Shown here: positions 30,198-60,780 of the stretch, one piece after another | Layout: every line of letters begins with the position of its first letter | Position numbering within the stretch: position 1 is the first letter of the stretch | Assembly: GCA_016791045.1 (NCBI GenBank) | Contig: JAEUNO010000015.1 | Coordinates: forward strand, 186,001-250,000 | Reading direction: 5' to 3' | Source of the DNA: Methyloversatilis sp. | GTDB lineage: Bacteria; Pseudomonadota; Gammaproteobacteria; Burkholderiales; Rhodocyclaceae | DNA: 64,000 bases | Notes under the pieces: model-generated | The model's database searches: none | The model's input: only the letters and a program-made list of their open reading frames with translations | Told to the model about the DNA's origin: nothing | Program-made: the position numbers and the translations under genes

Positions 30198-30204
30198 GCC
30201 GGAC

Positions 30205-31485
<1,281 letters not shown>

Positions 31486-31507
31486 CGCTTCGTTCCCCAA
31501 TCCGCAA

Positions 31508-34320: not shown

Positions 34321-35670
34321 TCAGCGCAAACCGAAACGGTTCATCAGGTCATAGAGGGTCGGGCGGCTCACGCCGAGCACTTCGGCCGCCTTGACCATGT
34401 TTCCATCCACCCGCGCGAGCACGCTGACGACAGCGCGTCGCTCGGCCTCCTCGCGGATCTGCCGCAGATTGAAAAAGCCATCTTCCTGATCGGCCGGCTT
34501 CAACCCGAGATCGGCCGCCGTGATCTGGCTGCCATCGGCCATGATGGTCGCCCGCTTGATGCAGTTCTCGAGTTCGCGCACATTGCCGGGCCACTTGTGC
34601 GCCTCGATCGCGGCGACCGCTTCGCGCGACAGCGTCAGTGCGCTGCGCCCCTGTTCGCCGGAAAACCGCTTTGCGAAGGAGTGCGCAAGCAGCGCGGCGT
34701 CGCCTTCGCGTGCGCGCAGCGGCGGAATCGTGACGACGATTTCGGCCAGGCGGTAATACAGATCCTCACGGAAACGCGCTTCACCGATCAGGGCCTGCAG
34801 ATCCTGGTGCGTGGCACAGACCACGCGCACGTCGATCGGAATCTCGTCGCGGCCGCCCAGGCGTTCGATGACGCGTTCCTGCAGGAAGCGCAGCAGTTTC
34901 GCCTGCAACGCACCGGGCAGATCGCCGATTTCGTCGAGGAACAGCGTGCCCTTGTTGGCGACCTCGATCTTGCCGGGCGTCTGCTTGGTGGCGCCGGTGA
35001 AGGCACCCTTCTCGTAGCCGAACAGTTCGCTTTCGAGCAGGTTGTCGGGAATGGCCGCGCAGTTGATCGCCACGAAGCGCTCGTTTGCCCGATCCGAGCG
35101 GTCGTGCAGCGTCTTCGCCAGCACTTCCTTGCCGGTTCCGCTTTCGCCGAGCAGCAGAACGGTGGCGCGCGTGGCCGATACCTTTTCGATCGTCCGCAGC
35201 ACGCGCAGCATGTCTGCGTCGCGCGTGATGAATCGGCCTTCGACACCCAGGTGCTGGTTGGCCAGACGGATGTTCTCCGCCTGCAGGTCGTGCAGCCTGA
35301 ATGCGCGTTCGATCAGCAGCGCGAGCATGTCGGGCTCGAACGGCTTGGCGTAGAAATCGTAGGCCCCCATGCCGATCGCCCGCAGCGCGTTGGCGCGGTC
35401 GTTCTGCCCGGTCAGCACGATGACCTTGGACTGCGGCGCGAGCGCCATGATCTCGCCGAGCAGCGCCATGCCTTCGGTCACGTCGTCGGGCGCCGGCGGC
35501 AACCCGAGGTCCATCGTGATCACGGAAGGTTCGTGGCGCCTGATCTGCGCCAGCGCGGATTCGCGGTCGCTTGCCAGTACGACTTCGTAGTCGTCGAAAC
35601 TCCAGCGCATCTGCTTCTGCAGCGCCGGATCGTCCTCGACGATCAACAGTGTCCGCCCCTTGTCTGCCAT
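34321..35670 (-). CDS. prsR: PrsR, sigma-54-dependent response regulator of the PEP-CTERM system
   Basis: This 449-residue NtrC-type activator has three domains. The receiver has phospho-acceptor Asp54 (in SVITMDLGLP). The AAA+ domain has GESGTGKE (Walker A), GYEKGAFTGATK (the GAFTGA loop that contacts sigma-54) and LFLDEIGDLP. The C-terminal Fis-type helix-turn-helix reads KAAEVLGVSRPTLYDLMNRF. The ATG at 35670 has GGGAG just upstream and lies 11 bases after the prsK stop. Partner of PrsK. The sigma-54 promoter at 43594 is a natural target. Confidence 0.95.
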   Translation of the reverse strand: MADKGRTLLIVEDDPALQKQMRWSFDDYEVVLASDRESALAQIRRHEPSVITMDLGLPPAPDDVTEGMALLGEIMALAPQSKVIVLTGQNDRANALRAIGMGAYDFYAKPFEPDMLALLIERAFRLHDLQAENIRLANQHLGVEGRFITRDADMLRVLRTIEKVSATRATVLLLGESGTGKEVLAKTLHDRSDRANERFVAINCAAIPDNLLESELFGYEKGAFTGATKQTPGKIEVANKGTLFLDEIGDLPGALQAKLLRFLQERVIERLGGRDEIPIDVRVVCATHQDLQALIGEARFREDLYYRLAEIVVTIPPLRAREGDAALLAHSFAKRFSGEQGRSALTLSREAVAAIEAHKWPGNVRELENCIKRATIMADGSQITAADLGLKPADQEDGFFNLRQIREEAERRAVVSVLARVDGNMVKAAEVLGVSRPTLYDLMNRFGLR

Positions 35671-35681
35671 GTCACTCCCGG

Positions 35682-37769
35682 TCAAGCAACGGCCGCTTCA
35701 GCCGCCTGCAGAGGAAAAACGAGCCGGAACAGACTGCCCCGACCCGGTTCGCTGGTCACTTCTATCCGCCCGCCCAGATCGTGGACATAGCGGAAGCTTT
35801 CGTATGCGCCGATGCCCATCCCGTTCGCCTTGGTCGACTGGAAGGGCTTGAACAGCCGCTCGCGCATGAACTCTTCGGTCATGCCGCAACCGGAGTCTTC
35901 GACCTCGATCACGACCCCCGCTTCAATGCGGCGCGCACGGATACTGACTTTACCGTTTTGCGGCGTGGCATCCAGTGCATTCTGCACAAGATGCCCCACA
36001 ACCCGCTCTATACGATCTTCATGGGCGCGCACCATCAGGCCGCTTTCCGCATCGAGTTCGAGTTCGCAGCCACTGCGCGCCCGGGCGCGATGCAGTCGCT
36101 CGAGCAGCGGCGTCAGTTCGACCGGTGAAGCCTGCTCGATCGGCTGGGTGCCGGAGCGCAACTGCAGCAGCATGCCGTTCATGCGACCGACGGCGTGTTC
36201 GATGGTGTCCATCATGTCCTGCTGGAACTCGGGGTTGTCGTGATGCTTTTTCGCATTGCGCAGCAGCAGGGACAGCTGGGCGATGAGATTCTTCAGGTCG
36301 TGCACGACAAACGCGCTCATCTTGGAGAAGGCTTCGAACTTCTTGGCCTCGATCAGCGCTTCCATGGCCTGGGTCTGATTGAGCACGCCGGCCACCTGGC
36401 GCCCGGCCGTCTTCAGCAGATCACGCACTTCCCAGTTCAGATCCAGCAGCGCGCGCGGACGGCACAGCACGACGAAACCGAGCGGCATGTCCTCGCTGCC
36501 GAGCGGGCAGATGAGCCAGACGTCCGGCGTCTGCGCGACCCACGCCGGCAACCTCAGATTGCCGTACACGCCGGGGCGCGAACGGTGCTCTTCGACGTTG
36601 ATCACCCACATCTTGCCCAGCAGCAACTGGATCAGCGGGCTGTCGGCCGGTTCCCGCGCATCGATCATCGGCACGTTCAGGCGCGCCGCGGGCGCGTAAT
36701 GACCGGCTTCGCTGCGCAACCACAGCATGCCGCCCGGACTTTCGACCAGATCGGCCATGACGCGGATCGAGGCCTGACGGAGTGCATCGACGCTGGATGC
36801 GCTGTACAGGGTGTCGGCCAGCTTCAGCCACTCGGCCCGGTAGTCATAGCGCAGGCTGAAGAAGTGCTTGTTGATGAATACACGCAGCCAGGCCCGCACG
36901 CTGCCGGAGGCGATCGACGCGAGAAACCCCAGTGCGCCGGCCGCCAGCACGACCGTCTGCAAGGCCTGGCCCCACTCGCCCCCGAAGTAGCGCACGTAGT
37001 ATCCGGCCAGCGCGATGATCAGCAGCGCGCCGCCCGACATGACCAGTGCCGAGGTGTGGAACACCGCGTCGCGCGATACGTTCAGCCGGATCGACCACTC
37101 GCTGACGCGGGCTGAAGACACGGCGAACAGCGGAATCGCGAGTGCATGCACCAGGCCGCGGGACGCCCACAGCGTCGAATCCTGCTGCCTGAACATCAGC
37201 GATTCGGAGAAGAAATAGAGATCGAAGGCGATCGAGAACGCGAGCCCGAGCGTCATCGGCTTGATGCCCCAGCGCCACTGCTGCGGCGTGTTGCGATAGA
37301 ACTGCTCGATCATCACCGCGCCCAGCAGACTCAGTCCGAGTCCGCACGCCATCAGCCACATCACCGACGCCGCGCCGGTCGGCACCAGCCAGGACAGCGC
37401 GACGTAACCCACGCCGCAGGGCAGCACCGAAATCAGGACGAAACGGATCAGCCAGGACGGCCGCTTGAGCAAGGTCGGCAAGGGCCGGCGGCCTTCGGGA
37501 TCGATGACGCACGCAGCGAGGAACAGCAGAAAAAGCAAGGTGTGCAGCGCGTCCGCCGCATAGACCAGCGTAATCAGTACCTGGTAACCCCTGAGTACGC
37601 TCAGGGCCGCAAGTGCGCACCACAGTGCACCCGACAACATGCAGATGGACAACAGCCGGGCACGCGGAGACTGACGCGCACCCATGATCAGCTGCAGCCC
37701 GAACAGGGCGAAACCGACCGCTGCCACGCCATAGGCGTACAGCGCGAACGTTACAGGGAAGGAGTCCAT
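35682..37769 (-). CDS. prsK: PrsK, membrane histidine kinase of the PEP-CTERM system
   Basis: This 695-residue kinase has an N-terminal half of about eight or more transmembrane helices (residues 1-300), a GAF-like domain (about 320-480), and a kinase core. The phospho-acceptor His is in SAFVVHDLKNLIAQLSLLL. The ATPase domain has QNALDATP (N box), VEDSGCGM (G1), LFKPFQSTKANGMGIGAYES (F/G2) and PGRGSLFRLVFP. The architecture matches the XrtA/PEP-CTERM-system kinase. The stimulus is unknown. Cotranscribed with prsR. Confidence 0.94.
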   Translation of the reverse strand: MDSFPVTFALYAYGVAAVGFALFGLQLIMGARQSPRARLLSICMLSGALWCALAALSVLRGYQVLITLVYAADALHTLLFLLFLAACVIDPEGRRPLPTLLKRPSWLIRFVLISVLPCGVGYVALSWLVPTGAASVMWLMACGLGLSLLGAVMIEQFYRNTPQQWRWGIKPMTLGLAFSIAFDLYFFSESLMFRQQDSTLWASRGLVHALAIPLFAVSSARVSEWSIRLNVSRDAVFHTSALVMSGGALLIIALAGYYVRYFGGEWGQALQTVVLAAGALGFLASIASGSVRAWLRVFINKHFFSLRYDYRAEWLKLADTLYSASSVDALRQASIRVMADLVESPGGMLWLRSEAGHYAPAARLNVPMIDAREPADSPLIQLLLGKMWVINVEEHRSRPGVYGNLRLPAWVAQTPDVWLICPLGSEDMPLGFVVLCRPRALLDLNWEVRDLLKTAGRQVAGVLNQTQAMEALIEAKKFEAFSKMSAFVVHDLKNLIAQLSLLLRNAKKHHDNPEFQQDMMDTIEHAVGRMNGMLLQLRSGTQPIEQASPVELTPLLERLHRARARSGCELELDAESGLMVRAHEDRIERVVGHLVQNALDATPQNGKVSIRARRIEAGVVIEVEDSGCGMTEEFMRERLFKPFQSTKANGMGIGAYESFRYVHDLGGRIEVTSEPGRGSLFRLVFPLQAAEAAVA

Positions 37770-37887: not shown

Positions 37888-39276
37888 TCAGCGTGCGCCG
37901 TCGCCGGTGAGCACGACGCGCACCGTCTGCAGCAGCACCAGCACATCAAGGAACAGGGTGTGATTCTTGACGTAGTACAGGTCGTACTGCAGCTTCTGTA
38001 CCGCGTCATCCACCGAGGCGCCATAGGCGTAGCGGACCTGGGCCCATCCGGTGATGCCCGGCTTGACCGAGTGGCGCGCGGCGTAGAACGGAATCTGGTC
38101 GGTCAGCTGATCGACGAAGTAAGGACGTTCCGGGCGCGGGCCGACAAAGCTCATGTCGCCGTGCAGCACGTTGAAGATCTGCGGCAGTTCGTCGATGCGC
38201 GTCTTGCGGATGAAGTGGCCGACGCGGGTGATGCGGTCATCGCTGTTGCTCGCCCAGCGCGGCTTGCCGTCGGCCTCGGCATCGAGACGCATGCTGCGGA
38301 ACTTCAGTACCTTGAACGTACGGCCGCCCTGGCCGACGCGTTCCTGACGGTAGATGACCGGAAAACCGGATTCCAGCGCGATGGCGATGGCGGCCAGCAA
38401 CATCACCGGCGCCGTCACGACCAGCAGCACCGACGCTGCGAGCACATCGAACAGACGCTTCACGACCGTCCGGCCGATGCCCTGGCGGAAACCGTCGCCG
38501 TAGATCAGCCAGCTGGCGCGTAGCGAATCGAGACGCACCTGACCGCGCATCCGCTCGAAGAAACTCGACAGATCGTTGACCGTCACGCCGGCCAGCTTGC
38601 AGTCCAGCAGTTCGCGCAGCGGCAGCACACCGCCCCGGCGCTCGCGCACCGCGACGACGATTTCATTGGCGCGGTGATCGCGGGCCAGCTGCATCACGCA
38701 ACTGCCTTCCGGCATGACCATGGCACTCGGCACTTCCACCGAGGTGTCCGCCCCGACCGACACGAAGCCGACGATGGTGTGCGTCGCACTGGCCGAGGTC
38801 GACACGCTTGCCCAGACCGAAGCCGCCTCGGAACCCGTGCCGACGACCAGGATGCGACGGGTGAACATGCCGGCGCCGTCGGCCTGCACGAAGGACGCCG
38901 CACGCAGCAGCAGGATGCCGCCGAAGCCGAGGCACAGTGAAATATCGAGCGCCGGCATCGCCATGCTGCCCTGTGGAAGCAGGCGAAACACCATATAAGC
39001 GACCGGGAGTCCCAGCAGGAAGGCAAACAGCACGCGTCCGACCAGTTCCGACAGATTGCGCGGCTGTTCGCTCTGGTACAGGCCGAGCGTGCTCATCAGC
39101 ACGGTCATCACGGCAGCGAAGACCGCCGCCGGAACCAGTGCGGGCAGCAGGGATTCGAGGCTGCCCGGTGCGCTGATCCACGCCGCGCCAAAGCCGGCAA
39201 TCAACAGGACCAGGGCTTCGGCAACAAGTCTCATGAGCGTTACGGACGGAACATAGTGACTGAACAACCTGACCAC
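37888..39276 (-). CDS. EpsB-type polyprenyl-phosphate sugar-1-phosphate transferase (PEP-CTERM/EpsH1 associated)
   Basis: This 462-residue initiating transferase moves a sugar-1-phosphate onto undecaprenyl phosphate, the first step of repeat-unit synthesis. Four N-terminal helices (residues about 10-125) are followed by a soluble CoA-binding-like domain (RRILVVGTGSEAASVW) and the catalytic bacterial sugar transferase domain: KRLFDVLAASVLLVVTAP, YRQERVGQGGRTFKVLKFRS, RKTRIDELPQIFNVLHGDMS and FVGPRPERP. This matches the exosortase-associated EpsB family. It heads the minus-strand run down to 27489, with a 118-base gap before prsK. Confidence 0.94.
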   Translation of the reverse strand: MVRLFSHYVPSVTLMRLVAEALVLLIAGFGAAWISAPGSLESLLPALVPAAVFAAVMTVLMSTLGLYQSEQPRNLSELVGRVLFAFLLGLPVAYMVFRLLPQGSMAMPALDISLCLGFGGILLLRAASFVQADGAGMFTRRILVVGTGSEAASVWASVSTSASATHTIVGFVSVGADTSVEVPSAMVMPEGSCVMQLARDHRANEIVVAVRERRGGVLPLRELLDCKLAGVTVNDLSSFFERMRGQVRLDSLRASWLIYGDGFRQGIGRTVVKRLFDVLAASVLLVVTAPVMLLAAIAIALESGFPVIYRQERVGQGGRTFKVLKFRSMRLDAEADGKPRWASNSDDRITRVGHFIRKTRIDELPQIFNVLHGDMSFVGPRPERPYFVDQLTDQIPFYAARHSVKPGITGWAQVRYAYGASVDDAVQKLQYDLYYVKNHTLFLDVLVLLQTVRVVLTGDGAR

Positions 39277-39526: not shown

Positions 39527-40693
39527 TCAGCGGCCGGATGGGGTCTGGAAAGCACCCGGAACCCACTTTCCGGGCAGCGGAAGCGGACGGGTTCCGCGTG
39601 GCAGAACGAACTCGAAAGCGGGTGCAAGCGCCGTAGTTCCCACGGTCGGGGCGGGTCCGACAGCCCCCCGGAGTGCCGAACCGGATGCCAGGCCGAAATC
39701 GAGCGCATCGATGTCGCCGAGCGCGCCGGCGACGACGAAAACGTTGCCGGATGTTTCCGTCGCTTCGCCCTGCAACGCCTGTCCCGGCAATACATTGAGG
39801 TTGTTGATGAGGTGAAGCGCAATCGGCGCCGGAAACCTGTTCCGGTCTGCCAGCCGCACGAACGCACCCTCGGTTCTGGTCTTTGCCTTCGAGAAGAAGG
39901 TGTTGTGCGACACCAGCAGGGCGTTCTCCGGCCAGACCGCACCTTCTATTCCGTAACTGACAAGGTGGGCGTTGCCCGAGGCGGCGCTTTCGCCGATCAC
40001 GTTGCCGATCATCACCACGTGGCCGCCGTTCGGAAATTCGGCTTCGTAGGACGCCTTGCCCGTGGGCCCGTCCACCAGCAGGTTGAAGCGCAGATCGCTG
40101 CGCGCCGCGCGCGATTTCAGCAGGTGTCCGTTGTAGCCGTTGTGAAAGCGCGATCCGGACACCTTCAGTTCGGCGATGCTGCCCGCGTACAGCAGGTGAT
40201 GCAGGGCGCGTGAATCGCGCGGTGCATCGGCGAACTCCGAGTCGACAACGTACAGTTCCGCCTGCCGGTCGTTCGACGTCAGTATCCCGTTCTCGTTGTC
40301 CCGGAACACGCAGTTCCTGATCACCAGCCGGCCTGATTCGAAGCGTATGCCCGCGCCGTTGCCGTGGGGCACCCGGGCGCCGCGGAATTCGATCCCTTCG
40401 ACTTCGAACTCACCGCCGCGCATCACCCAGATGGCCTTGCCCTCGGCATGCCTGCCCGCTGCCTCGAGTACGACAGGACCGCCGGCAGAGGCAATGCGCA
40501 GGCGCTTCTGCGTCCACACGGCGGTATCCCCGGCGTAGAGGCCCGGCTCGATCAGCACCACATCACCGGCCTGCGCAACCCGCGCCGCCTCCGACGGCGA
40601 CCTGAGCGACAGCCCGGGTCCGACGTGCAGCGTGGCGGCCTGGGCCGGAATGCCCCACAGCAGCACCAGCACGGCCGACATCAGCGCACGCAT
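39527..40693 (-). CDS. Secreted right-handed parallel beta-helix protein
   Basis: This is a protein of about 388 residues with a signal peptide (MRALMSAVLVLLWGIPAQA). An alternative ATG at 40729 would add 12 residues. The mature part has the irregular short-repeat pattern of a parallel beta-helix (for example FEVEGIEFRGARV and RLVIRNCVFRDNENGI), as in polysaccharide lyases, mannuronan epimerase AlgG and related enzymes. No catalytic residues could be assigned. Standing in the polysaccharide locus it may trim, epimerise or guide the polymer in the periplasm. It has no PEP-CTERM signal. The gene upstream is divergent with almost no space between starts. Confidence 0.78.
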   Translation of the reverse strand: MRALMSAVLVLLWGIPAQAATLHVGPGLSLRSPSEAARVAQAGDVVLIEPGLYAGDTAVWTQKRLRIASAGGPVVLEAAGRHAEGKAIWVMRGGEFEVEGIEFRGARVPHGNGAGIRFESGRLVIRNCVFRDNENGILTSNDRQAELYVVDSEFADAPRDSRALHHLLYAGSIAELKVSGSRFHNGYNGHLLKSRAARSDLRFNLLVDGPTGKASYEAEFPNGGHVVMIGNVIGESAASGNAHLVSYGIEGAVWPENALLVSHNTFFSKAKTRTEGAFVRLADRNRFPAPIALHLINNLNVLPGQALQGEATETSGNVFVVAGALGDIDALDFGLASGSALRGAVGPAPTVGTTALAPAFEFVLPRGTRPLPLPGKWVPGAFQTPSGR

Positions 40694-40735
40694 GGCGCGA
40701 TAGACTTGCGTCACCTCGACACCCCCCATGCCTGA

Positions 40736-43228
40736 ATGATCCGGCAGTCCGCAATTCCGAACACGCGTGCCCCGCGCAGGGCAGGTTTCGCAGCACGGAT
40801 CGTGTGCGGGCTTGCATCGGCCGCACTGGCCGTGCCGGCGCTGCTGATCCTGTTCCACCTGGCCGAAGGCCGGCTGGCGATGTCATGCCTCATCTTCATC
40901 AGCATGGTGGTGGTGTATGTAAAACCGGTCACTGCATTCGTCATCGTGCCGACGCTCTGGCCGGTGCTCGACCGCGTGCCCTGGACGGGCCAGATGCATT
41001 TCACCGAAAGCGACGCCCTGCTTCTGTCAGCCTGCGCCGCGCTTTTCCTGCATCACGCCATCAAGGCGCCGCCCCGTCAACCCGGCGCAACGCTGAAGCC
41101 GTCGCCGATCGCCTGGCTGGTTCTGGCGCTGATCGGATCGAGCTACGTCGTATCCTCGCTGCCCGTGATCTGGCCGCTGCCGACGATCGACGCGGATTTC
41201 TGGTTCGGCTACGACACGCCGGCCAACACCCTGCGGTTGGCCAAGGCGCTTCCGCTCGCAGTCGTGTTCTGCATTGCGCTGCAGATGGAAGCGGCGGTGC
41301 GTGGGAGCAAGGTCACCGGGGCACTTGCATGGGGACTTGTCGGCGGCCTGCTCAGCGTATCGCTCGCCGCGCTGTGGGAACGTCTCGCCTATCCGGGATT
41401 CAGCAATTTTTCCGCCGATTACCGCACCACCGCCCTGTTCTGGGAGATGCATGTCGGAGGTGCTGCGCTGGACGGCTGGCTCATGCTGACCCTTCCCGTG
41501 CTGGTCGCCCTGCTGCATGAGGAGCGGCGTCCGCTGCAGGCGGGCGTGCTGATGGTCATTTCCGCACTGGCCGCCTATGCCTTGCTGACCACCTTCAGCC
41601 GCGCGGCCTATCTGGGCGCGGGCGTCGGTATACTGATCACCTTTCTGCTGTGCGCCCTGCGCCGGCGTCCCGCCCGTCAAGCCGATGCCGCACCGCACTC
41701 GAAGAAACTCTGGTGGCTGGTGGTGGCGCTCTGTCTGGTCTCTGCAGTCTGGGCGTTCGCGGGCGGCGGCGGATACCGGGGTCTGCTCGCGCAACTCGGG
41801 TTGATCATCGCGATCTGGTTCTGCGCACCGATCATGGCTCGTGTATCGCCGCTGCCTGCCGGGCTGGCGGTCGTCGCTGGCGCAGCAGGCGGCGTACTCG
41901 GCATCGCAGTCGCCGATCTCGTGCCCAAGGGTCCCTATCTGATCTACGGTGTGCTGTGGGTGATCGTGCTCGCACTGCGGCTGTCGCCGCGCCGGGTGCT
42001 GCCGCTGCTCGGCGGCCTCGTCGCGCTCGCCGTGATGGCCGCATGGGTCGGTTTTTCGTGGAGCGAAGGCAAATCCGGATACACGCCCGTCGTGGCGTCG
42101 CTGGCGGCGCTGGCCATGCTTGCGGTGTACCGGCTGTCGCCTCGACCGCCCTGGCACGCCGATCTGGGTGGCGCCATCAATCTGGGTGCGACGCTGATGC
42201 TGGCGGTCGGCATCGCGGTCGGCGCAGGCAGCTACTACGTCGGCGAACGCTTTTCGACGCTGGACCAGGATCTTGAACATCGCTTCGAACATTGGTCCAG
42301 CGGCGCCGCACTCGTCGGCAACGAGCGCGAACGATGGCTCGGCATCGGCGTCGGGCGCTTTCCCGGCGCCTACTTCTGGAACGTACCCAAAGGGCAGTAT
42401 CCGGGCACGCTGTCGATCATCGATCAGGACGACGAGCGCTTCCTGCGTATCGGCGGGGCCCGTCACATGCAGGGCTTCGGTGAATTGCTGAGGCTGAGCC
42501 AGCGCGTGCCCTCCGACATCCAGGGACCGGTGCTGATCCGGTTCAGCGCACGCGCCGAAGGCGCCGTGTCGGTGGGATTCGAAATCTGCTCGAAGTGGCT
42601 GCTCTATGAAGACGGTTGCACGCTGGCCAGCACGCAAGTCGGCGGCGGCTCCGAGTGGCGCACCTACGAAGCCGTGCTGCCCGCGAAGAAGCTCTGGCAG
42701 GGACCGTTCTACGCACCGGCGCTTGCGGTGTTTTCAATGTCCAGCGCGGGACGCGGCTCGCTCGATGTGCGCGACGTCAGCGTGTTCGACACGCTGAAGG
42801 GCGAACTGGTCGCAAACGGCCGCTTCGAAGATGGCGCGGCGCACTGGTTCTTTACCTCGGACAGGCATCACCTGCCCTGGCACGCCAAGAATCTTTATCT
42901 GCACATGTGGGTGGAACAGGGCTGGCTCGGTCTGGCGGCACTGGCACTTGGGTTCGGGCTGGCACTCATCCGCGCGGTCGTTCGACCGTCACGCAATCCG
43001 CTGCTGCTGTGCGGAATTGCCGGTGCATTGAGCGGCCTGATGGTCGTGGGTATCGCCGATTCGCTGCTCGACATGGCGCGCCTGAGCGTCATGCTTTTCG
43101 TGATGTTCTACCTGTCGCTGGCCCTGAAAAGGACCCCGATGCAGGCCCGGGCACTGCAGACGACAGGTCAGGCGGCCAGCTTGCCCTCGGCGAATGCGCA
43201 CAGCGAGCCGAAGGTTTCGAACACCTGA
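40736..43228 (+). CDS. O-antigen ligase/polymerase (Wzy_C)-like membrane protein with inserted beta-domain
   Basis: This 830-residue protein has 12 or more transmembrane helices. The Wzy_C elements are present but far apart: LGIGVGRFPGAYFW near residue 535 and HAKNLYLHMWVEQGWLGL near 715. Between them is a hydrophilic stretch of about 150 residues (about 560-705) that looks like a carbohydrate-binding beta-sandwich (GPVLIRFSARAEGAVSVGFE, GSLDVRDVSVFD). It should polymerise repeats or transfer the glycan in the periplasm. The start is uncertain: ATG 40736 has no ribosome-binding site and lies against the divergent beta-helix gene. Its end overlaps the ACP gene by 61 bases, tail to tail. Confidence 0.85.
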   Translation: MIRQSAIPNTRAPRRAGFAARIVCGLASAALAVPALLILFHLAEGRLAMSCLIFISMVVVYVKPVTAFVIVPTLWPVLDRVPWTGQMHFTESDALLLSACAALFLHHAIKAPPRQPGATLKPSPIAWLVLALIGSSYVVSSLPVIWPLPTIDADFWFGYDTPANTLRLAKALPLAVVFCIALQMEAAVRGSKVTGALAWGLVGGLLSVSLAALWERLAYPGFSNFSADYRTTALFWEMHVGGAALDGWLMLTLPVLVALLHEERRPLQAGVLMVISALAAYALLTTFSRAAYLGAGVGILITFLLCALRRRPARQADAAPHSKKLWWLVVALCLVSAVWAFAGGGGYRGLLAQLGLIIAIWFCAPIMARVSPLPAGLAVVAGAAGGVLGIAVADLVPKGPYLIYGVLWVIVLALRLSPRRVLPLLGGLVALAVMAAWVGFSWSEGKSGYTPVVASLAALAMLAVYRLSPRPPWHADLGGAINLGATLMLAVGIAVGAGSYYVGERFSTLDQDLEHRFEHWSSGAALVGNERERWLGIGVGRFPGAYFWNVPKGQYPGTLSIIDQDDERFLRIGGARHMQGFGELLRLSQRVPSDIQGPVLIRFSARAEGAVSVGFEICSKWLLYEDGCTLASTQVGGGSEWRTYEAVLPAKKLWQGPFYAPALAVFSMSSAGRGSLDVRDVSVFDTLKGELVANGRFEDGAAHWFFTSDRHHLPWHAKNLYLHMWVEQGWLGLAALALGFGLALIRAVVRPSRNPLLLCGIAGALSGLMVVGIADSLLDMARLSVMLFVMFYLSLALKRTPMQARALQTTGQAASLPSANAHSEPKVSNT

Positions 43229-43419
43229 CCATCGATTTCGTCATCGGCGACTTCGATGCCCAGCCTTTCCTCCAGTTCGGATATCACTGCCACGACAGCC
43301 ATCGAGTCAAGTTCCGGCACGGCACCGAGCAGCGGCGTTGCGGCGGAAAAAGTGGCTGAACGACCTTTGAGGCTCAATACCTCATCGAGGATCTGCGCGA
43401 TCTGCTGCTGAACTTCCAT
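43168..43419 (-). CDS. Acyl carrier protein of the exosortase-A-associated set
   Basis: This 83-residue carrier protein starts at 43419 with GGGAG six bases upstream. The phosphopantetheine Ser39 is in PELDSMAVVAVI, and the surrounding acidic helices (SELEERLGIEVADDEIDG) are typical of an acyl carrier protein. It is transcribed away from the AMP ligase gene, across a 279-base regulatory gap, and presumably carries the acyl or aminoacyl group that the ligase activates. It is not the fatty-acid AcpP, which has a DSLD motif and different context. Confidence 0.88.
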   Translation of the reverse strand: MEVQQQIAQILDEVLSLKGRSATFSAATPLLGAVPELDSMAVVAVISELEERLGIEVADDEIDGQVFETFGSLCAFAEGKLAA

Positions 43420-43593
43420 CCCGTTCTCCCTCAAGCTTGGGCACGGCAGGGGGCGTCGCAGCCATCGCCCTTCCCGCGTGCAATCGGACGCGGAGGATAA
43501 CACTAGGGTCTGTCCGCATTGGATTCGTGCGTCACGTTACCCCTCGGGTGGCCTCGCACACGCCGCCCCGAGCGACCCGGAAAGCGGCAAATA

Positions 43594-43608
43594 CGGCACG
43601 CCTCTTGC
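43594..43608 (+). promoter_or_regulatory. Sigma-54 (-24/-12) promoter for the ligase operon
   Basis: CGGCACG-CCTC-TTGC matches the sigma-54 consensus TGGCACG-N4-TTGC at 14 of 15 positions scored with free spacer, differing only at the first base, with invariant GG and GC at the correct 12-base spacing. It lies about 90 bases before the ligase ATG at 43699. PrsR, encoded at 34321-35670, is a sigma-54 activator and the likely regulator. Confidence 0.75.
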
Positions 43609-43698
43609 GTGATCCGCGCCGAGACGTGCAAAAGTCTCTGCATTCATCGGCGCGGATGGCTACCCTTTGCGACGTCGGAATTCAACCGGTTTTCACCC

Positions 43699-45276
43699 AT
43701 GCGGGACGCCTTTCTCCTCCACCAGCTGATTTCGCCCGGTCCAGCGCCTGCGCTGACCTACGGCAACCGGACCCTCGACTACACATCGTTGAAGCAGCAG
43801 TGCGACCAGTTCGCCGCCGGACTGCGCTCGATCGGCAGCGGGCGGGGCGAGCGGATCGGCATCTATCTCGAGAAGCGCTTTGAAACCGTGGTCGCCAGCT
43901 TCGGCGCGACCACCGCCGGCGCGGTCTTCGTGCCGATCAATCCGCTGCTGAAGGCGGACCAGGTCGGTCACATCATGCGCGACTGCAATGTGCGCGTGCT
44001 GATCACCTCCCCGGAGCGGCTGGACGGCCTGCGCGATACCCTGGCCGCCTGCCCCGACTGCGAGCATGTCGTGCTGACCGGCGCGCGCCCGGACACCGCG
44101 CTGCCGACGCAGGTCCTGCACGAATGGGCGGCCCTGCTCGACGCCACCGATGCCGTGCCGGGCAACGGTGCGATGTCGGACACCGATATCGCCGCCATCC
44201 TCTACACCTCCGGCAGCACCGGTCGCCCCAAGGGCGTGGTGCTGTCGCACCGGAACATGGTGGCCGGTGCGAAAAGTGTTGCCAGCTATCTGGGCAACCA
44301 CGGCGACGACACCCTGCTGGCCGCGCTCCCGCTGTCCTTCGATGCCGGCTTTTCGCAGCTCACCACGGCCTTCCATTCCGGTGCGCGCGTCGTGCTGCTC
44401 AATTACCTGATGCCGCGCGACGTGCTCAATGCCCTGGTGCGCGAAAAGGTGACCGGCCTGACTGCCGTGCCGCCGCTGTACATCCAGCTGACCCAGCTCG
44501 AATGGCCGACCGGGGTCGATGAACACCTGCGCTACTTCGCCAACACCGGCGGCCGCATGCCGCTCGACACGCTGAACGCGCTGCGCGCTCGCGTCCCGAA
44601 GGCGAAACCCTTCCTGATGTATGGTCTGACCGAAGCCTTCCGCGCCACCTATCTGCCGCCCGATCAGGTCGATCGCCGCCCGGATTCGATCGGCAAGGCG
44701 ATTCCCAACAACGAGGTGCTGGTGCTGCGCGAAGACGGCAGCCCGTGCAACGCCGACGAGCCGGGCGAACTGGTGCAGCGCGGGCCGCTGGTCGCCCAGG
44801 GTTACTGGAACGATCCCGAAAAGACGGCGGAGCGGTTCCGGCCGCTGCCTGCCGCGGCCGGCGTGCGCCCCGACGGACTGGTGATGCCGGAGATCGCCGT
44901 GTTTTCCGGCGACACGGTCCGCCGCGACGCCGAGGGCTATCTGTATTTCATCGGCCGCCGCGACGAAATGATCAAGACCTCGGGCTACCGCGTGAGCCCG
45001 ACCGAAATCGAGGAAGCGCTGTACGCGACCGGTCTGGTCGGCGAGTGCGCCGCGTTCGGCGTCGACCACGCCACGCTGGGCCAGGCCATCGTCGTCATCG
45101 CGACCGGCCGCAACGGCGCGCCGCTCGACGACGCCGCACTGCTCGCCGAATGCCGGCGCACACTGCCCGCCTATCAGCTGCCGGCGCGCATCGTCGCCGA
45201 ACACGGCCCGCTGCCGCGCAACCCGAATGGCAAGATAGATCGCAAGACGCTGGCCGCCGGCTTCGCCGGACTGTGA
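43699..45276 (+). CDS. Acyl-CoA ligase (AMP-forming), exosortase A system-associated
   Basis: This is a 525-residue adenylating enzyme. The start at 43699 (MRDAFLLHQLI) fits the family; 60 further upstream codons contain no conserved sequence and would overlie the promoter. It has the ATP-binding motif LYTSGSTGRPKGVVLSH, the MYGLTEAF motif, and the C-terminal hinge and catalytic Lys in GRRDEMIKTSGYRVSPTEIE and NPNGKIDRKTL. It activates a carboxylic acid as acyl-AMP and probably loads it on the divergent ACP. The native substrate is unknown. First gene of a long plus-strand operon. Confidence 0.92.
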   Translation: MRDAFLLHQLISPGPAPALTYGNRTLDYTSLKQQCDQFAAGLRSIGSGRGERIGIYLEKRFETVVASFGATTAGAVFVPINPLLKADQVGHIMRDCNVRVLITSPERLDGLRDTLAACPDCEHVVLTGARPDTALPTQVLHEWAALLDATDAVPGNGAMSDTDIAAILYTSGSTGRPKGVVLSHRNMVAGAKSVASYLGNHGDDTLLAALPLSFDAGFSQLTTAFHSGARVVLLNYLMPRDVLNALVREKVTGLTAVPPLYIQLTQLEWPTGVDEHLRYFANTGGRMPLDTLNALRARVPKAKPFLMYGLTEAFRATYLPPDQVDRRPDSIGKAIPNNEVLVLREDGSPCNADEPGELVQRGPLVAQGYWNDPEKTAERFRPLPAAAGVRPDGLVMPEIAVFSGDTVRRDAEGYLYFIGRRDEMIKTSGYRVSPTEIEEALYATGLVGECAAFGVDHATLGQAIVVIATGRNGAPLDDAALLAECRRTLPAYQLPARIVAEHGPLPRNPNGKIDRKTLAAGFAGL

Positions 45277-45304
45277 GCCGGCCGTCCTTCACCACGGAAT
45301 ATCC

Positions 45305-46549
45305 ATGACCGAAAGCCCCCGCAAGCTGCCCGAGCACGCCCCGCTGAGCCTTTTCTCCAGTGCATATGGCGAGCTGCAGATCAATGGCATCCCGCTCAGC
45401 CGCGTCGTCGCGCGCGCCGGCCAGACGCCGCTCTACGCGTACGACCGCAGCGCACTCGATGCGCGCATCGGCGAACTGCGCGCCGCGCTGCCGCGCGCGG
45501 TGAAGCTGCACTACGCGATGAAGGCCAACCCGATGCCGGCACTGGTCGCCTACATGGCGGCGCGGGTCGACGGACTCGACGTCGCGTCCGGCCGCGAACT
45601 GAAGGTGGCGCTCGACGCCGGCGCGGATCCGCACGAAATGAGTTTCGCCGGCCCGGGCAAGAGCGAAGCCGAACTGATACAGGCGATCGCGGCCGGCGTG
45701 CTGCTGAATGTGGAGTCCTTCCGCGAAGCGCGCCTGCTGGCCGACCTGTCCGCCCGCCATGGCTGGCCGGCGCGGGTGGCGGTTCGCATCAACCCGGATT
45801 TCGAACTGAAGTCGTCCGGCATGAAGATGGGCGGTGGTCCGAAGCAGTTCGGCGTCGATGCCGAACAGGTGCCGGAACTGCTGCGCGAGATCGGCCGCCT
45901 GGGTCTCGCCTTCGAAGGTTTCCACCTGTACGCCGGTTCGCAGAATCTGAAGGCGGAGTCGATCTGCGAAGCGCAGCTCAAGAGTTACGATCTGGCGCTG
46001 CGGCTTGCAGCCGACGCGCCGGCGCCGGTGCGCACGCTCAATCTGGGCGGCGGCTTCGGCATTCCGTACTTCCCGGGCGAGCTGCCGCTCGATCTGGCAC
46101 CGGTCGGCGACAACCTCTCGCATCTGGTCGAGCGCGCCGCGCGCGAGCTGCCGCAAGCGGGGCTGGTGGTCGAACTCGGCCGCTACCTGGTCGGCGAAGC
46201 CGGTATATATATATGCAGGGTGGTCGACCGCAAGGTGTCGCGCGGTCACACCTATCTCGTGGTCGACGGCGGCCTGCACCATCATCTCGCCGCGTCCGGC
46301 AATTTCGGTCAGGTGATCCGCAAGAATTACCCGGTCGCGATCGGCAACCGCATGAACGCGCCGGCCGGCGAGCCGGTATCGGTCGTCGGCCCGCTGTGCA
46401 CACCGCTCGACCTGCTGGCCGACCGCATGTCGCTGCCGGACGCGCAACCGGGCGATCTGGTCGTCGTGTTCCAGTCGGGCGCCTATGGCTTCACCGCCAG
46501 CCCCCAAGGCTTTCTGAGCCATCCGGAACCGGTGGAGCTGCTGGTATGA
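45305..46549 (+). CDS. PLP-dependent fold-III decarboxylase, exosortase A system-associated
   Basis: This 414-residue enzyme resembles diaminopimelate/ornithine decarboxylases. PLP binds Lys73 (HYAMKANP); LNLGGGFGIPY forms the phosphate loop. The His of the family motif HIGSQ, which stacks on PLP, is replaced by Tyr209 (FHLYAGSQ). The specificity motif C-E-S is C365-T-P. These suggest a substrate other than free diaminopimelate. It follows the ligase by 28 bases. The butirosin enzyme BtrK, which decarboxylates an amino acid bound to a carrier protein, belongs to the same superfamily and offers a model. Confidence 0.92.
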   Translation: MTESPRKLPEHAPLSLFSSAYGELQINGIPLSRVVARAGQTPLYAYDRSALDARIGELRAALPRAVKLHYAMKANPMPALVAYMAARVDGLDVASGRELKVALDAGADPHEMSFAGPGKSEAELIQAIAAGVLLNVESFREARLLADLSARHGWPARVAVRINPDFELKSSGMKMGGGPKQFGVDAEQVPELLREIGRLGLAFEGFHLYAGSQNLKAESICEAQLKSYDLALRLAADAPAPVRTLNLGGGFGIPYFPGELPLDLAPVGDNLSHLVERAARELPQAGLVVELGRYLVGEAGIYICRVVDRKVSRGHTYLVVDGGLHHHLAASGNFGQVIRKNYPVAIGNRMNAPAGEPVSVVGPLCTPLDLLADRMSLPDAQPGDLVVVFQSGAYGFTASPQGFLSHPEPVELLV

Positions 46550-46589
46550 CACCCCCTGCCGGCCCGCCTCGCCGCAACCGGTGCGCGCG

Positions 46590-47564
46590 ATGTCCCTGAC
46601 CCTGGCGCATCCGGACGCCGCGACCGTCAGCCACAACTTTGCCGTGGCCAAGGTGCTGTGCATCCTCACGGTGGCAGCCGGGCACTATTTCGAAGGCAGC
46701 CTGTTGTGGATCCCTGCCACGGTTGCGCTGTTCGTGTTCGGCTTTTCGTCCGGCTACTTCACGGCGCAGCGCTACCGCAGCCGCTTTTCGGTTGCGGCCT
46801 TCTGGCGCGCGAAGATTCTTCGTCTGGTGCCGGCCATCCTGCTGATCGATGCGGTATTGCTCGCCCTGTTCCTGTTTCAGGACCGGGCGGGCATCTGGAC
46901 CGTCGAAAGCCTGATCGCCGCGCTGGGCCTGTCCGGCTGGCTCAACTGGCTCGGGCTGCCAAACCCCGGGCCCTACGGCGCCGGTCTGTGGTTCTTCACG
47001 CTGCTGCTGATGTTCTACCTGGCCTACCCGGTGCTGCGCATGCTGACGCAGAGCGACCGTGGGGCGCTTGCCGTCGCGCTGGTCGGCCTCGCCGCGACGA
47101 CGGCCCTGCACTACACCGTCGATGTCGGCCACATGCTGTGGCCGACCGTGTTTGCGTTTCTGCTCGGCAGCGTCGCCGGCGGCCGGAGGTGGCCCGGCGC
47201 GGGTTTGCTGCATCTTGCGGCATGCCTGGGCGCAGCGCTCGCGCTGGGCGCGCTGAACGCGATGGCGGGGATCAACAGCTTCAATTACCCGCTCATCCTG
47301 CTGATGTCGGTCAGCGTCTGCGGGGTGTTGCTGACGCTGCCGCTTCCGCGCACGCTGTGCGCCCCGGCTCTGTGGTTCGACGCCTGTGTGCTCGAAATCT
47401 ACTTTCTTCACAGTTACCTGTTCGTCAGGCCCGACGGGCTGCCGCCCGCTGCCGGATTCCTGATGTCCATGGCGATCGTGCTGCTGGTGTCGCTGTCGGT
47501 TGCGCGGCTGCGCGCGCGGCTGACCCATGGATCGACCGGCCATCACCGGCAGCAGGCCGCCTGA
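46590..47564 (+). CDS. Acyltransferase-3-like multi-pass membrane protein
   Basis: This 324-residue membrane protein has about nine or ten hydrophobic segments. The start ATG at 46590 is preferred over a GTG nine bases earlier. The N-terminal stretch NFAVAKVLCILTVAAGHYFE, with a His at the end of the first helix, and FWRAKILRLVPAILLIDAVL with its RxxR pattern resemble the O-acyltransferase 3 family. It probably O-acetylates or otherwise acylates the lipid-linked repeat unit. The donor and acceptor are unknown. It is part of the ligase operon. Confidence 0.75.
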   Translation: MSLTLAHPDAATVSHNFAVAKVLCILTVAAGHYFEGSLLWIPATVALFVFGFSSGYFTAQRYRSRFSVAAFWRAKILRLVPAILLIDAVLLALFLFQDRAGIWTVESLIAALGLSGWLNWLGLPNPGPYGAGLWFFTLLLMFYLAYPVLRMLTQSDRGALAVALVGLAATTALHYTVDVGHMLWPTVFAFLLGSVAGGRRWPGAGLLHLAACLGAALALGALNAMAGINSFNYPLILLMSVSVCGVLLTLPLPRTLCAPALWFDACVLEIYFLHSYLFVRPDGLPPAAGFLMSMAIVLLVSLSVARLRARLTHGSTGHHRQQAA

Positions 47565-47601
47565 ATGTTTCACCGAACCCGATGTTTCAGAGACCCGCTC
47601 A

Positions 47602-49332
47602 ATGATTGAATTCGTGCAGCACGCAGTACCGACGCAGGCCGATCTGGAAAACCTCGCGCAGGCACTGCAGTCGGACCGCTCCGATGTCGCCGTATCGTCC
47701 GCAGCGTTCAGCCTCAAGCTGTCGGCACCTTTCCGGGCTTCGCTGTCCGGCAGCCACCTGCTGATCGAGGTCGGCGACGCCGCGGCGGACGCGTTGCGCG
47801 AACGCGCGCTGCGCGTCGACATCGATCTTGGCGCCCAGAGCGTGCGCGCGTGGACCGACCGCTACGCCACCTATCCGCTGTGCTATCGCGCAGACGGCGC
47901 GTCGTCGATCGCGATTGCCAGCCGCGCCGATGCGCTGGCCGCAACGCCGGCGCTGCGCTCGCAGACGCTGTACGACTATCTGTACTTCCACATGATCCCG
48001 GCGCCGGAAACGGTGTTTCCCGACGTGTTGCGCCTGCCACCGGGCAGCCGTCTGACGCTTTCCGCAGGCCAGGCGCCGACGGTGGAACGCTGGTGGAACC
48101 CGCGTTTCAGCCCGGCCCGCAGCGGCGACTTCGAAACGCTGAAGAAGGATTTTCTCGCCATCGTGCGGCGCGGTGTCGCACGCGAAGCCACCGGCCATTA
48201 CGCGGCCTTCCTGTCCGGCGGCACCGACAGCTCCACCGTGGTCGGCATGCTGTGCCGCGAGCACGGTCCGGTGCGCGCCTACTCGATGGGCTTCGAAGCC
48301 GAAGGCTATGACGAGATGGAATACGCCCGTCTCGCAGCCAGGCACTTCGGCGCCAGCCATCACGAACACTACGTGACGCCGGACGAACTGGTGGCGGCAA
48401 TCCCGAAAGTGGCGGCGCACTACGACCAGCCGTTCGGCAATTCGAGCGCCCTGCCCGCCTACATCCTGTCGCAGATCGCACGCGACGAAGGCTACGACAA
48501 GCTGCTCGCCGGCGACGGCGGCGACGAACTGTTCGGCGGCAATTCGCGCTACGCCAAGAACCGCGTGTTCGGCTTCTACGACAACGTGCCCGGCGTGCTG
48601 CGCGCCGTGCTCGAGCCGCTGCTGGCCAGCCCGCTCGGCAAGCTGCCGCTGGCCCGCAAGGGTGCGAGCTATGTCGAGCAGGCGCGCGTACCGATGCCGG
48701 CACGCAACGAGATGTACAACATGCTGCTGCGCCTGGGCCCGGAAAACATCTTCACCGCCGACTTCCTGGCGCAGATCGACCGCCGCGCACCGCTCGCGCT
48801 CCAGCAGTCGGTGTGGGACAGCGTGGATGCCGACGACGACCTGAACCGCGAACTGGGCTTCGACTGGCGCTTCACGCTGGCCGACAACGATCTGCCCAAG
48901 GTGATCGGCACCACGTCGCTGGCCGGGCTCGACGTCGGCTTCCCGCTGCTGTCCGACGAACTGCTGGATTTCTCGCTCGGCCTGCCGCTGGACTACAAAT
49001 TGAAGGGTTTCGATCTGCGCTGGTTCTTCAAGGAAGCGCTGCGGGGTTTCCTGCCCGATGAAATCATCACGAAGAAGAAGCACGGCTTCGGTTTGCCGTT
49101 CGGGCACTGGGCACTCAGGCACGACGGCCTGAATGCGCTGTCGCGTGCGTCGGTGCAGGGTACGGTCGACCGCGGCATCGTTCGGCCGCAGTTCGCCGAC
49201 GCGCTGTTCGCCGAACACCTGCCCGCCTATCCCGGCTTCTACGGTGAAATGGTGTGGATACTGATGATGATGGACCAGTGGATGCAGCGTCATGCCCTGC
49301 CGGCGACCCCACCGTCCGGGGACAGGACATGA
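47602..49332 (+). CDS. Asparagine synthetase-like amidotransferase lacking the glutaminase Cys
   Basis: This 576-residue enzyme has a complete synthetase domain with PP-loop SGGTDSS (residues 205-211) and GDGGDELFGG, which adenylates a carboxylate and couples it to an amine. The N-terminal glutaminase-like domain is short and starts MIEFVQHAV, without the catalytic Cys2, although the DRYATYPLCYR segment recalls the family. It therefore cannot use glutamine by the normal route. In Pseudomonas, WbpS of this family amidates GalNAcA, and this locus makes UDP-GalNAcA. Amidation, or coupling of an amine made by the decarboxylase, is plausible. Start at 47602. Confidence 0.9.
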   Translation: MIEFVQHAVPTQADLENLAQALQSDRSDVAVSSAAFSLKLSAPFRASLSGSHLLIEVGDAAADALRERALRVDIDLGAQSVRAWTDRYATYPLCYRADGASSIAIASRADALAATPALRSQTLYDYLYFHMIPAPETVFPDVLRLPPGSRLTLSAGQAPTVERWWNPRFSPARSGDFETLKKDFLAIVRRGVAREATGHYAAFLSGGTDSSTVVGMLCREHGPVRAYSMGFEAEGYDEMEYARLAARHFGASHHEHYVTPDELVAAIPKVAAHYDQPFGNSSALPAYILSQIARDEGYDKLLAGDGGDELFGGNSRYAKNRVFGFYDNVPGVLRAVLEPLLASPLGKLPLARKGASYVEQARVPMPARNEMYNMLLRLGPENIFTADFLAQIDRRAPLALQQSVWDSVDADDDLNRELGFDWRFTLADNDLPKVIGTTSLAGLDVGFPLLSDELLDFSLGLPLDYKLKGFDLRWFFKEALRGFLPDEIITKKKHGFGLPFGHWALRHDGLNALSRASVQGTVDRGIVRPQFADALFAEHLPAYPGFYGEMVWILMMMDQWMQRHALPATPPSGDRT

Positions 49333-58569: not shown

Positions 58570-58811
58570 CTGTTCCCACGCTCCACATGCAATTGATCCG
58601 GCCGCGCCGCGCGCTTCGTCCTGCGCGCCATGACTGGCCCGCGCCGCACACGCCCTCGATTGTTGCCGGTGCGCACAGCCTGTCTGTTTGCGCCTGACGC
58701 GTCAGCGGACGGGCCCGCATCGACACCCCTTGCGCGACCACCCCTTCCGCGGTCACCCATGCGGCCGCGCTCCCGGCAATCAGCCGCGTTCGTCGTGATG
58801 TGCATCGCGCC
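58570..58811. other. Gap between two acyltransferase genes
   Basis: These 242 bases lie between two minus-strand acyltransferase-3 genes. I see no gene, hairpin or repeat that I can support. It probably contains a promoter for the gene at 57355. Confidence 0.5.
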
Positions 58812-60736: not shown

Positions 60737-60780
60737 TCGAATGTCACGTCCCGTAATGCCTGCCCGAACTGCCACAGGCG

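Follow-up and report, generated by a model that had tools for sequence, protein, structure and literature searches.

The genes described here lie in a stretch of 64,000 nucleotides from Methyloversatilis sp. (contig JAEUNO010000015.1, positions 186,001 to 250,000), which is referred to as the window and to which all coordinates belong unless a locus is named. Three of them form a cassette that may bring the chemistry of carrier-bound amino acids into an exopolysaccharide locus. They encode a stand-alone acyl carrier protein (ACP) of 83 amino acids with its serine in ELDSM (43168-43419, minus strand; PF00550 (PP-binding), 24.6 bits against a gathering threshold of 20.8), an AMP-forming ligase (43699-45276, plus strand; TIGR03098, 756.2 bits, cut-off 592.35) that starts about 280 bases from the divergent ACP gene, and a fold-III pyridoxal phosphate (PLP) decarboxylase (45305-46549, plus strand; TIGR03099, 623.6 bits, cut-off 478.45). 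Genes for an AT3 (Acyl_transf_3) membrane acyltransferase (46581-47564, plus strand; PF01757, 37.6 bits, gathering threshold 31) and an Asn-synthetase-like protein (47602-49332, plus strand; PF00733 (Asn_synthase), 229.7 bits over residues 196-562) follow. Profile scores and positions agree with a first-pass annotation of this DNA, which had grouped ligase, ACP, PLP decarboxylase and Asn-synthetase-like enzyme at these places; all four are present, and the AT3 gene between the last two had gone unmentioned there.

The cassette belongs to an exosortase A (XrtA) exopolysaccharide locus. The XrtA gene itself (TIGR03109, 288.8 bits, cut-off 208) is located about 11 kb past the window end (G000:C2:260883-261656), and the window contains, on the minus strand and over the respective cut-offs, genes for PrsT (31508-34300; TIGR02917), the response regulator PrsR (34321-35685; TIGR02915), the histidine kinase PrsK (35682-37769; TIGR02916) and a TIGR03013 glycosyltransferase (37888-39276). 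On the plus strand, 40736-43228 encodes an O-antigen-ligase-like (Wzy_C) membrane protein of the polysaccharide locus (PF04932, 21 bits, below the gathering threshold of 31.7). Such genes are also close to the cassette in some relatives, and in the window the tail of this gene overlaps that of the ACP gene by 61 bases (43168-43228). Downstream of the Asn-synthetase-like gene come a TPR-like protein, then a flippase and then a methyltransferase, and the part of the locus outside the window includes an intact TIGR03108 amidotransferase (1080.9 bits, N-terminus MCGIAG) and a TIGR03019 FemAB-family protein. Nucleotide sugars with a uronic acid are probably supplied, to judge from profile matches, by a tviB-like UDP-sugar dehydrogenase (30205-31500, minus strand; TIGR03026, 388.5 bits over 189.8; TviB model 495.4 of 592 bits, below cut-off) and a tviC-like epimerase (29142-30284, minus strand; TviC model 445.4 of 760 bits, below cut-off). 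The first-pass annotation had called these the UDP-GalNAcA genes of the locus. Relatives of tviB and tviC are indeed present at 29142-31500, although about 12 kb from the cassette and on the opposite strand, and because they score below the curated TviB and TviC cut-offs a UDP-GalNAcA supply is plausible rather than established.

The ligase is the sole TIGR03098 match at E <= 1e-80 in its genome. The NCBIfam name of the family is acyl-CoA ligase; two general fatty-acyl-CoA models also score 296 and 278 bits. In a search of solved structures with the whole protein, the best stand-alone relative was VinN (E 9.1e-59, rank seventh), and when a core of 190 residues, selected by us, was used as the query, VinN came first with an E of 1.3e-26, followed by the next different protein at 1.2e-14. 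VinN is the 3-methylaspartate:VinL ligase of vicenistatin biosynthesis. Its pocket positions were located by counting along the core alignment (chain number minus 16; three letters agree), and at the positions of VinN Asp230, Ser299 and Arg331 the window ligase has Asp, Thr and Arg. In a ligase alignment of 27 rows, one truncated and with the window ligase and its paralogue in locus L063 among them, the Asp230 equivalent was found in 26 of 26 aligned rows, Ser or Thr in 27 of 27 and the Arg331 equivalent in 27 of 27. A pattern match in a wider set of 46 ligases, which contains repeated genomes, gave Arg in all 46, Ser/Thr in 45 and Asp in 43, the remainder not matching the pattern, and the Arg331 position is not Arg in the alignments of DltA, LgrA and 5n9w as read by eye. 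Since Asp, Ser/Thr and Arg of the pocket are conserved, the substrate is probably an amino diacid that is held by its amino-acid end while the other carboxyl is activated, and acyl-CoA ligase, the name in the database, is probably a misnomer. The window ligase thus shares the Asp/Ser-Thr/Arg feature of the VinN/BolO-type amino-diacid:ACP ligases, from which loading of the ACP is predicted.

The decarboxylase points in the same direction. Its best solved relative is BtrK (2j66, 7ru7; E 2.6e-78), which is ahead of the best diaminopimelate decarboxylase (6.2e-46) by 32 orders of magnitude in E and is named in the PDB as L-glutamyl-[BtrI ACP] decarboxylase. A GPLCTP.D segment is common to both proteins (BtrK reads PLCTPED there), and among 52 decarboxylase homologues PLCTPLD is kept in 51 and the PLP lysine motif in all. 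Being nearer to BtrK than to decarboxylases of free amino acids, the window enzyme probably belongs to the BtrK/VinO type and is predicted to act on an ACP thioester. The same genome has another TIGR03099 match of 205 bits, a level usual for LysA-type proteins, which would be LysA. A second TIGR03099-like decarboxylase was also observed there on contig C8 (L064:9265-10605, plus strand; 405.4 bits, below cut-off), upstream of an MFS-acyltransferase fusion and near genes that, read by eye, resemble an ATP synthase operon.

A relative gives an independent hint at the substrate. One genome (G029) holds, in addition to an XrtA-type cassette (L056), a second run of genes on one strand (L063:3821-10343, minus) for a carrier protein, a ligase (TIGR03098, 495 bits), methylaspartate mutase S (NF002612, 157.5 bits against 110), methylaspartate mutase E (TIGR01503, 405.6 against 390.1), a GlmL-like protein and a decarboxylase (TIGR03099, 427.2 bits); ligase, GlmL-like protein and decarboxylase are below their cut-offs. 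The pocket of this ligase reads Asp/Thr/Phe/Arg, identical to that of the window ligase. In vicenistatin supply, glutamate mutase makes 3-methylaspartate, which is then loaded and decarboxylated (PMC11284099). By analogy the L063 run would follow the same logic, and it is a candidate proteobacterial pathway from 3-methylaspartate to 3-aminoisobutyryl-ACP. It places this kind of ligase and decarboxylase, in one branch, beside an enzyme making an aspartate homologue. Among the genes beside the window cassette no mutase gene was seen, and therefore aspartate itself is the simplest guess for its substrate. The earlier proposal that an amino acid is loaded on the carrier and decarboxylated there is supported, and made sharper, by the comparisons with BtrK and VinN and by this methylaspartate mutase relative.

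Taken together, we think it somewhat probable that the exopolysaccharide of the XrtA locus receives from the cassette an omega-aminoacyl group, which a carrier reserved for this task would present as a thioester. Judging from the pocket residues, the TIGR03098 ligase would adenylate an alpha-amino dicarboxylic acid at its side-chain carboxyl and load it on the 83-residue ACP; the substrate would most likely be L-aspartate, with glutamate or a substituted aspartate possible. By homology with BtrK and VinO, the TIGR03099 enzyme would then strip the alpha-carboxyl from the ACP-bound amino acid, giving beta-alanyl-ACP from aspartate, or the ACP thioester of gamma-aminobutyric acid (GABA) if glutamate is used. 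In the third and weakest step, a transferase would acylate an amino or hydroxyl group, either in the polymer or in its lipid-linked precursor, so that a polymer which is probably acidic, with uronic acids, would carry a free amine. The neighbouring AT3 protein and the FemAB/GNAT-fold proteins are candidates for this transferase here, and hydrolases 1 and 2 are candidates in many relatives, not in this genome. The Asn-synthetase-like enzyme would be a separate ATP-dependent amide former that takes its nitrogen from ammonia or an amine, and it may, although it need not, use the new amine. For the joining step the first-pass annotation had offered both N-acylation and amide bonding to the uronate carboxyl. 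Acyl transfer from the thioester would fit the logic better: on the carrier the product is already activated for acylation, free beta-alanine would need no carrier, and hand-over as a thioester occurs in the vicenistatin pathway (PMC11284099) and in the proposal for bolagladin; for amide bonding by the synthetase the evidence, given below, is mixed.

In order to examine how far the cassette and exosortase A go together, a sample of 150 genomes of the order was searched, in which a genome was counted as having the cassette when TIGR03099 scored over cut-off. TIGR03099 was found in 29 genomes, XrtA in 40 and hydrolase 2 (TIGR03101) in 22. The cassette occurred in 24 of the 40 XrtA genomes and in 5 of the 110 others (Fisher p 1e-12; this and the other co-occurrence p values are not corrected for kinship). 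The recurrence of ligase, ACP and decarboxylase beside exosortase A, asserted in the first-pass annotation, is that of a known XrtA-associated set, and in the sample TIGR03099 accompanies XrtA more often than by chance. Inside the XrtA genomes, hydrolase 2 tracks TIGR03099: it is present in 20 of the 24 that have the cassette and in 2 of the 16 that lack it (p 1.3e-5). In a layout common among relatives, one strand carries two hydrolases together with the ACP, and the opposite one the ligase, the decarboxylase, sometimes other genes and the synthetase, as seen in Pseudothauera, Thauera and Zoogloea (L103, L105, L120); the ACP gene is divergent from the ligase and adjoins hydrolases 2 and 1 in several relatives. 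The ligase is present in most, not all, of the fetched cassette stretches.

Several observations weigh against this interpretation. Six nonribosomal peptide synthetase (NRPS) chains outrank VinN when the whole ligase is the query (among them LgrA at 7e-66, a sum over two domains, and a peptide synthetase at 4.1e-59). At the position of VinN Lys330, which we take to be a pocket residue, all 27 aligned ligases have Phe, so that the pocket is not identical to that of VinN and the diacid may not be aspartate; on the alignment, this would count against identity with VinN and not exclude the window ligase from the VinN/BolO type. A KMGG.P.QFG segment that the window decarboxylase has in common with BtrK pattern-matches just 29 of the 52 decarboxylases, and in one genome with the decarboxylase (G103) no TIGR03098 match was found. 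Of the 29 TIGR03099 genomes, 5 have no XrtA over cut-off, so that in some hosts the product may have a use other than in this polysaccharide. Hydrolase 2 is the strongest tested partner inside XrtA genomes, whereas no TIGR03101 match was found in the window genome (91.94% complete; TIGR03100 not searched), nor one over cut-off in G082, G103 and G111, and no transferase is tied to the window cassette. Finally, the literature searched contained no polysaccharide structure tied to a cassette-bearing strain.

Among the possible transferases, the AT3 protein of 46581-47564 is a candidate by its position between decarboxylase and synthetase; an AT3 protein occupies the same position in L040, as does its cluster mate in L045. 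FemAB/GNAT-fold (PF13480) proteins are close to several cassettes, and since they also occur near synthetase genes whose fetched surroundings have no cassette, we claim no association between PF13480 and the cassette. Hydrolases 1 and 2, strong partners elsewhere, were rejected for this genome, in which a search for TIGR03101 gave no match. Further acylation candidates were observed in a dense group on the minus strand (57355-63211), which consists of two AT3 genes (57355-58569 and 58812-60248; NCBIfam/Pfam), an AAC(3)-fold N-acyltransferase (59909-60850; 88.9 of 270 bits on a resistance-gene model, well below cut-off), an AlgI/DltB-like MBOAT (60781-62187; best solved relative DltB, E 3e-27) and an unassigned protein (62177-63211). 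Transfer by this MBOAT in the manner of the Dlt D-alanylation system was rejected, as the protein misses the DltB model TIGR04091 (159.2 of 375 bits) and is encoded on the opposite strand, at a distance of about 14 kb from the decarboxylase; the MBOAT is kept as one transferase candidate among several. Control of the cassette by sigma-54 was likewise rejected: the window has 13 matches against a chance mean of 15.23, and of 43 regions upstream of ligases only the one in this DNA has the strict core, while 2 have a looser version. The site in question (43594-43609, plus strand) is 90 bases before the ligase start, has 2 mismatches from TGGCACG-N4-TTGCW and is not conserved.

The Asn-synthetase-like protein keeps the pyrophosphatase motifs SGGTDSS and GDGGDE, plus KKKHGFGLPF, and fails the TIGR03108 amidotransferase model (204.1 bits, cut-off 816.9). 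SGG[TL]DSS and GDGGDE are intact in all 33 homologues of at least 400 bits, the window protein included; the third motif was misread in L094, where the synthetase gene spans two frames. As the first-pass annotation had noted for the glutaminase Cys, there is no Cys at position 2, and an MCG start was found in none of the 33 N-termini printed (the window and 32 other homologues of at least 400 bits). Many homologues begin with M(S/T/P)G(L/I)CGW, which by eye corresponds to MCGIAG with Cys2 replaced. Alternatively, these may retain the Cys at position 5 after a short leader; the window protein has neither form, and its N-terminus, together with seven others of the order sample, was classed by eye as eroded beyond the CGW form. 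An AlphaFold2 model from 44 sequences had a mean pLDDT of 86.2, with mostly low values for residues 1-62, and the best Foldseek matches were TsnB9, beta-lactam synthetase and AsnB. For the Foldseek neighbours TsnB9, beta-lactam synthetase and carbapenam synthetase, TM by query was 0.44-0.65 and identity 14-19%. Beta-lactam and carbapenam synthetases are AsnB relatives that have no working glutaminase and form amides with ATP. By its motifs and modelled fold the window protein is a member of the AsnB/beta-lactam synthetase superfamily. With no Cys2 and an eroded glutaminase domain, it is not of the glutamine-dependent (class II) amidotransferase type, and it is predicted that it should form an amide with ATP, probably drawing no ammonia from glutamine itself. 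The AsnB-type synthetase domain is common to this protein, TIGR03108 and the WbpS-type amidotransferases; in contrast to TIGR03108, the window protein has neither the catalytic Cys nor an intact glutaminase domain. A parallel drawn earlier with WbpS, as an enzyme that amidates GalNAcA, fails for the window synthetase, because the locus has a distinct amidotransferase with the Cys.

Distribution of the synthetase gene was followed in the order sample and in a scan of the genome_contigs collection, from which the best 80 loci were taken. In the order sample it was detected in 34 genomes, 33 at 400 bits or more and one (G082) cut by a contig end. All 34 are among the 40 XrtA genomes, and none of the 110 others reached 400 bits, two of them having weaker homologues (G009, 309.5 bits; G142, 298 bits). 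Window-like synthetases among the matches listed in the scan came from Thauera, Zoogloea, Azoarcus, Rubrivivax, Leptothrix, Accumulibacter and other assemblies. Present in 34 of the 40 XrtA genomes sampled, the Asn-synthetase-like gene is a general gene of XrtA loci. In a Rubrivivax gelatinosus polysaccharide cluster, three asparagine synthase genes are labelled wbpS and two of them carry transposon insertions, according to a table in PMC3684757. A beta-helix protein like that of window 39527-40858 is encoded directly upstream of the synthetase, on the same strand, in 9 of the best 80 loci (L104, L110, L111, L117, L129, L130, L150, L156, L163).

A tentative alternative to acyl transfer from the thioester, which we would expect to be wrong more often than right, is that the synthetase is the joining enzyme and couples the cassette amine, released by a hydrolase or still carrier-bound, to a uronic-acid carboxyl. 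Gene order speaks for it: among loci that hold both genes, the decarboxylase is followed within 4 kb, on the same strand, by the synthetase in 12 of 18 from the order sample, the window included, and in 14 of 23 from the best 80 of genome_contigs, the two sets overlapping in two repeats. In three related metagenome-assembled genomes (L137, L139, L144; one titled Ferrovum sp.), tviB, tviC, decarboxylase and synthetase form one uninterrupted run, with an overlap ATGA between decarboxylase and synthetase; the ligase is on a separate contig, complete in two of them, while the third has a fragment of it, under the cut-off, at the end of a contig. In another genome (G015) the ligase stays next to the synthetase with the decarboxylase elsewhere. 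The eroded synthetase clade is also richer in the cassette. Of its 79 genomes that were searched, 65 have a TIGR03099 match, over cut-off in 64, whereas other members of the family, counted in the order sample and including one unclassified genome (G082), reach 13 of 26 (p 0.0019, under a grouping made by eye and post hoc); of the 14 misses in this clade, 3 (L102, L164, L176) show a decarboxylase piece or a ligase close to the synthetase. However, 13 of the 34 XrtA genomes with the synthetase have no TIGR03099, and inside XrtA genomes the two are not associated (p 0.67). The R. gelatinosus DSM 1709 and IM 151 assemblies likewise have the synthetase gene and no TIGR03099, and carrier chemistry would be unnecessary for an amine in free form, such as beta-alanine or GABA. 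Coupling between synthetase and cassette is possible.

A more elaborate version, to which we give still less weight, combines both reactions into a zwitterionic exopolysaccharide at XrtA loci: beta-alanyl or GABA thioesters would be passed to the sugars, and the synthetase would then link this amine with the carboxyl of a uronate, by which the substituent would be cross-linked or cyclised. It is rather improbable, in turn, that the cassette makes a small diffusible molecule or the head group of a lipid, such as an omega-amino acid in N-acylated form, in place of a polysaccharide substituent. The 5 TIGR03099 genomes without XrtA over cut-off would fit such a product, and in three of them, from a single genus, the set adjoins other metabolic genes (L060, L061, L062), namely an aminotransferase and a gene cluster whose representative in L060 is a DinB_2/FGE-sulfatase/methyltransferase fusion, which we take to be OvoA-like. 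On the other hand, XrtA accompanies TIGR03099 in the other 24 of 29 genomes, and PrsT/PrsK/PrsR, flippase-like genes and glycosyltransferases surround several of the fetched loci. An ordinary acyl-CoA or fatty-acyl ligase with a spare diaminopimelate or ornithine-type decarboxylase and unrelated neighbours, as the NCBIfam name and the two fatty-acyl-CoA matches would have it, is very hard to reconcile with amino-diacid pocket Asp and Arg that are invariant where aligned, a BtrK far nearer than any diaminopimelate decarboxylase, the joint occurrence of ACP, ligase and decarboxylase in many loci and the existence of a version with methylaspartate mutase.

The supply of an aminoacyl thioester to the polysaccharide, which we prefer to these alternatives, has its closest parallel in VinN-VinL-VinO of vicenistatin, where, as here, a stand-alone AMP ligase with Asp/Ser-Thr/Arg is combined with a stand-alone ACP and a PLP decarboxylase for a carrier-bound amino acid. 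The proposed BolO-BolC-BolN set of bolagladin shows the same three-part likeness for a beta-aminoacyl starter. These sets feed a polyketide synthase or NRPS, whereas the window genes are in an XrtA exopolysaccharide locus, and the Phe at Lys330 and the lack of a glutamate mutase gene seen beside the cassette, both described above, are further differences. The five-enzyme system for beta-amino acid starters of macrolactams also has a second adenylation enzyme, a dipeptidyl transferase and an amidohydrolase (PMC11284099). With BtrI-BtrK of butirosin, the likeness is in the decarboxylase, BtrK being the closest solved relative of the window enzyme and named for carrier-bound glutamate. Butirosin is an aminoglycoside, and its ligase is of another type than the window ligase.

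The TIGR03098 and TIGR03099 families, of which the window genes are members, and their link with exosortase A are already known from NCBIfam, whose models (hypoth_equivalog) name no substrate or product. Our search, which had little coverage of subscription journals, found no publication assigning either family a substrate or product, and no report of a beta-alanine- or GABA-bearing polysaccharide beside such a locus. None of the searched terms occurs in the text of the 2006 PEP-CTERM/EpsH paper (PMC1569441), and the accessible parts of PMC4784049, PMC3684757, PMC9850573, PMC11087309 and PMC8776678 do not name the ligase-ACP-decarboxylase set. What is new here is the residue-level evidence, from alignment, on the probable specificity of the ligase. 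The specific prediction that aspartate or a close diacid would be loaded on the ACP and converted to beta-alanyl-ACP makes an annotation with no substrate assayable. Use in a polysaccharide locus would, by analogy, extend the VinN/BtrK kind of system, and if this is true, the amino-acid chemistry of carrier proteins, known so far from antibiotic and lipopeptide pathways, enters the synthesis of extracellular polysaccharides. Carriers of the cassette include assemblies of Zoogloea, Thauera and Accumulibacter, which are genera of activated-sludge flocs and granules. We believe that, if the prediction is correct, a free amine on an acidic polymer could influence aggregation and floc formation.

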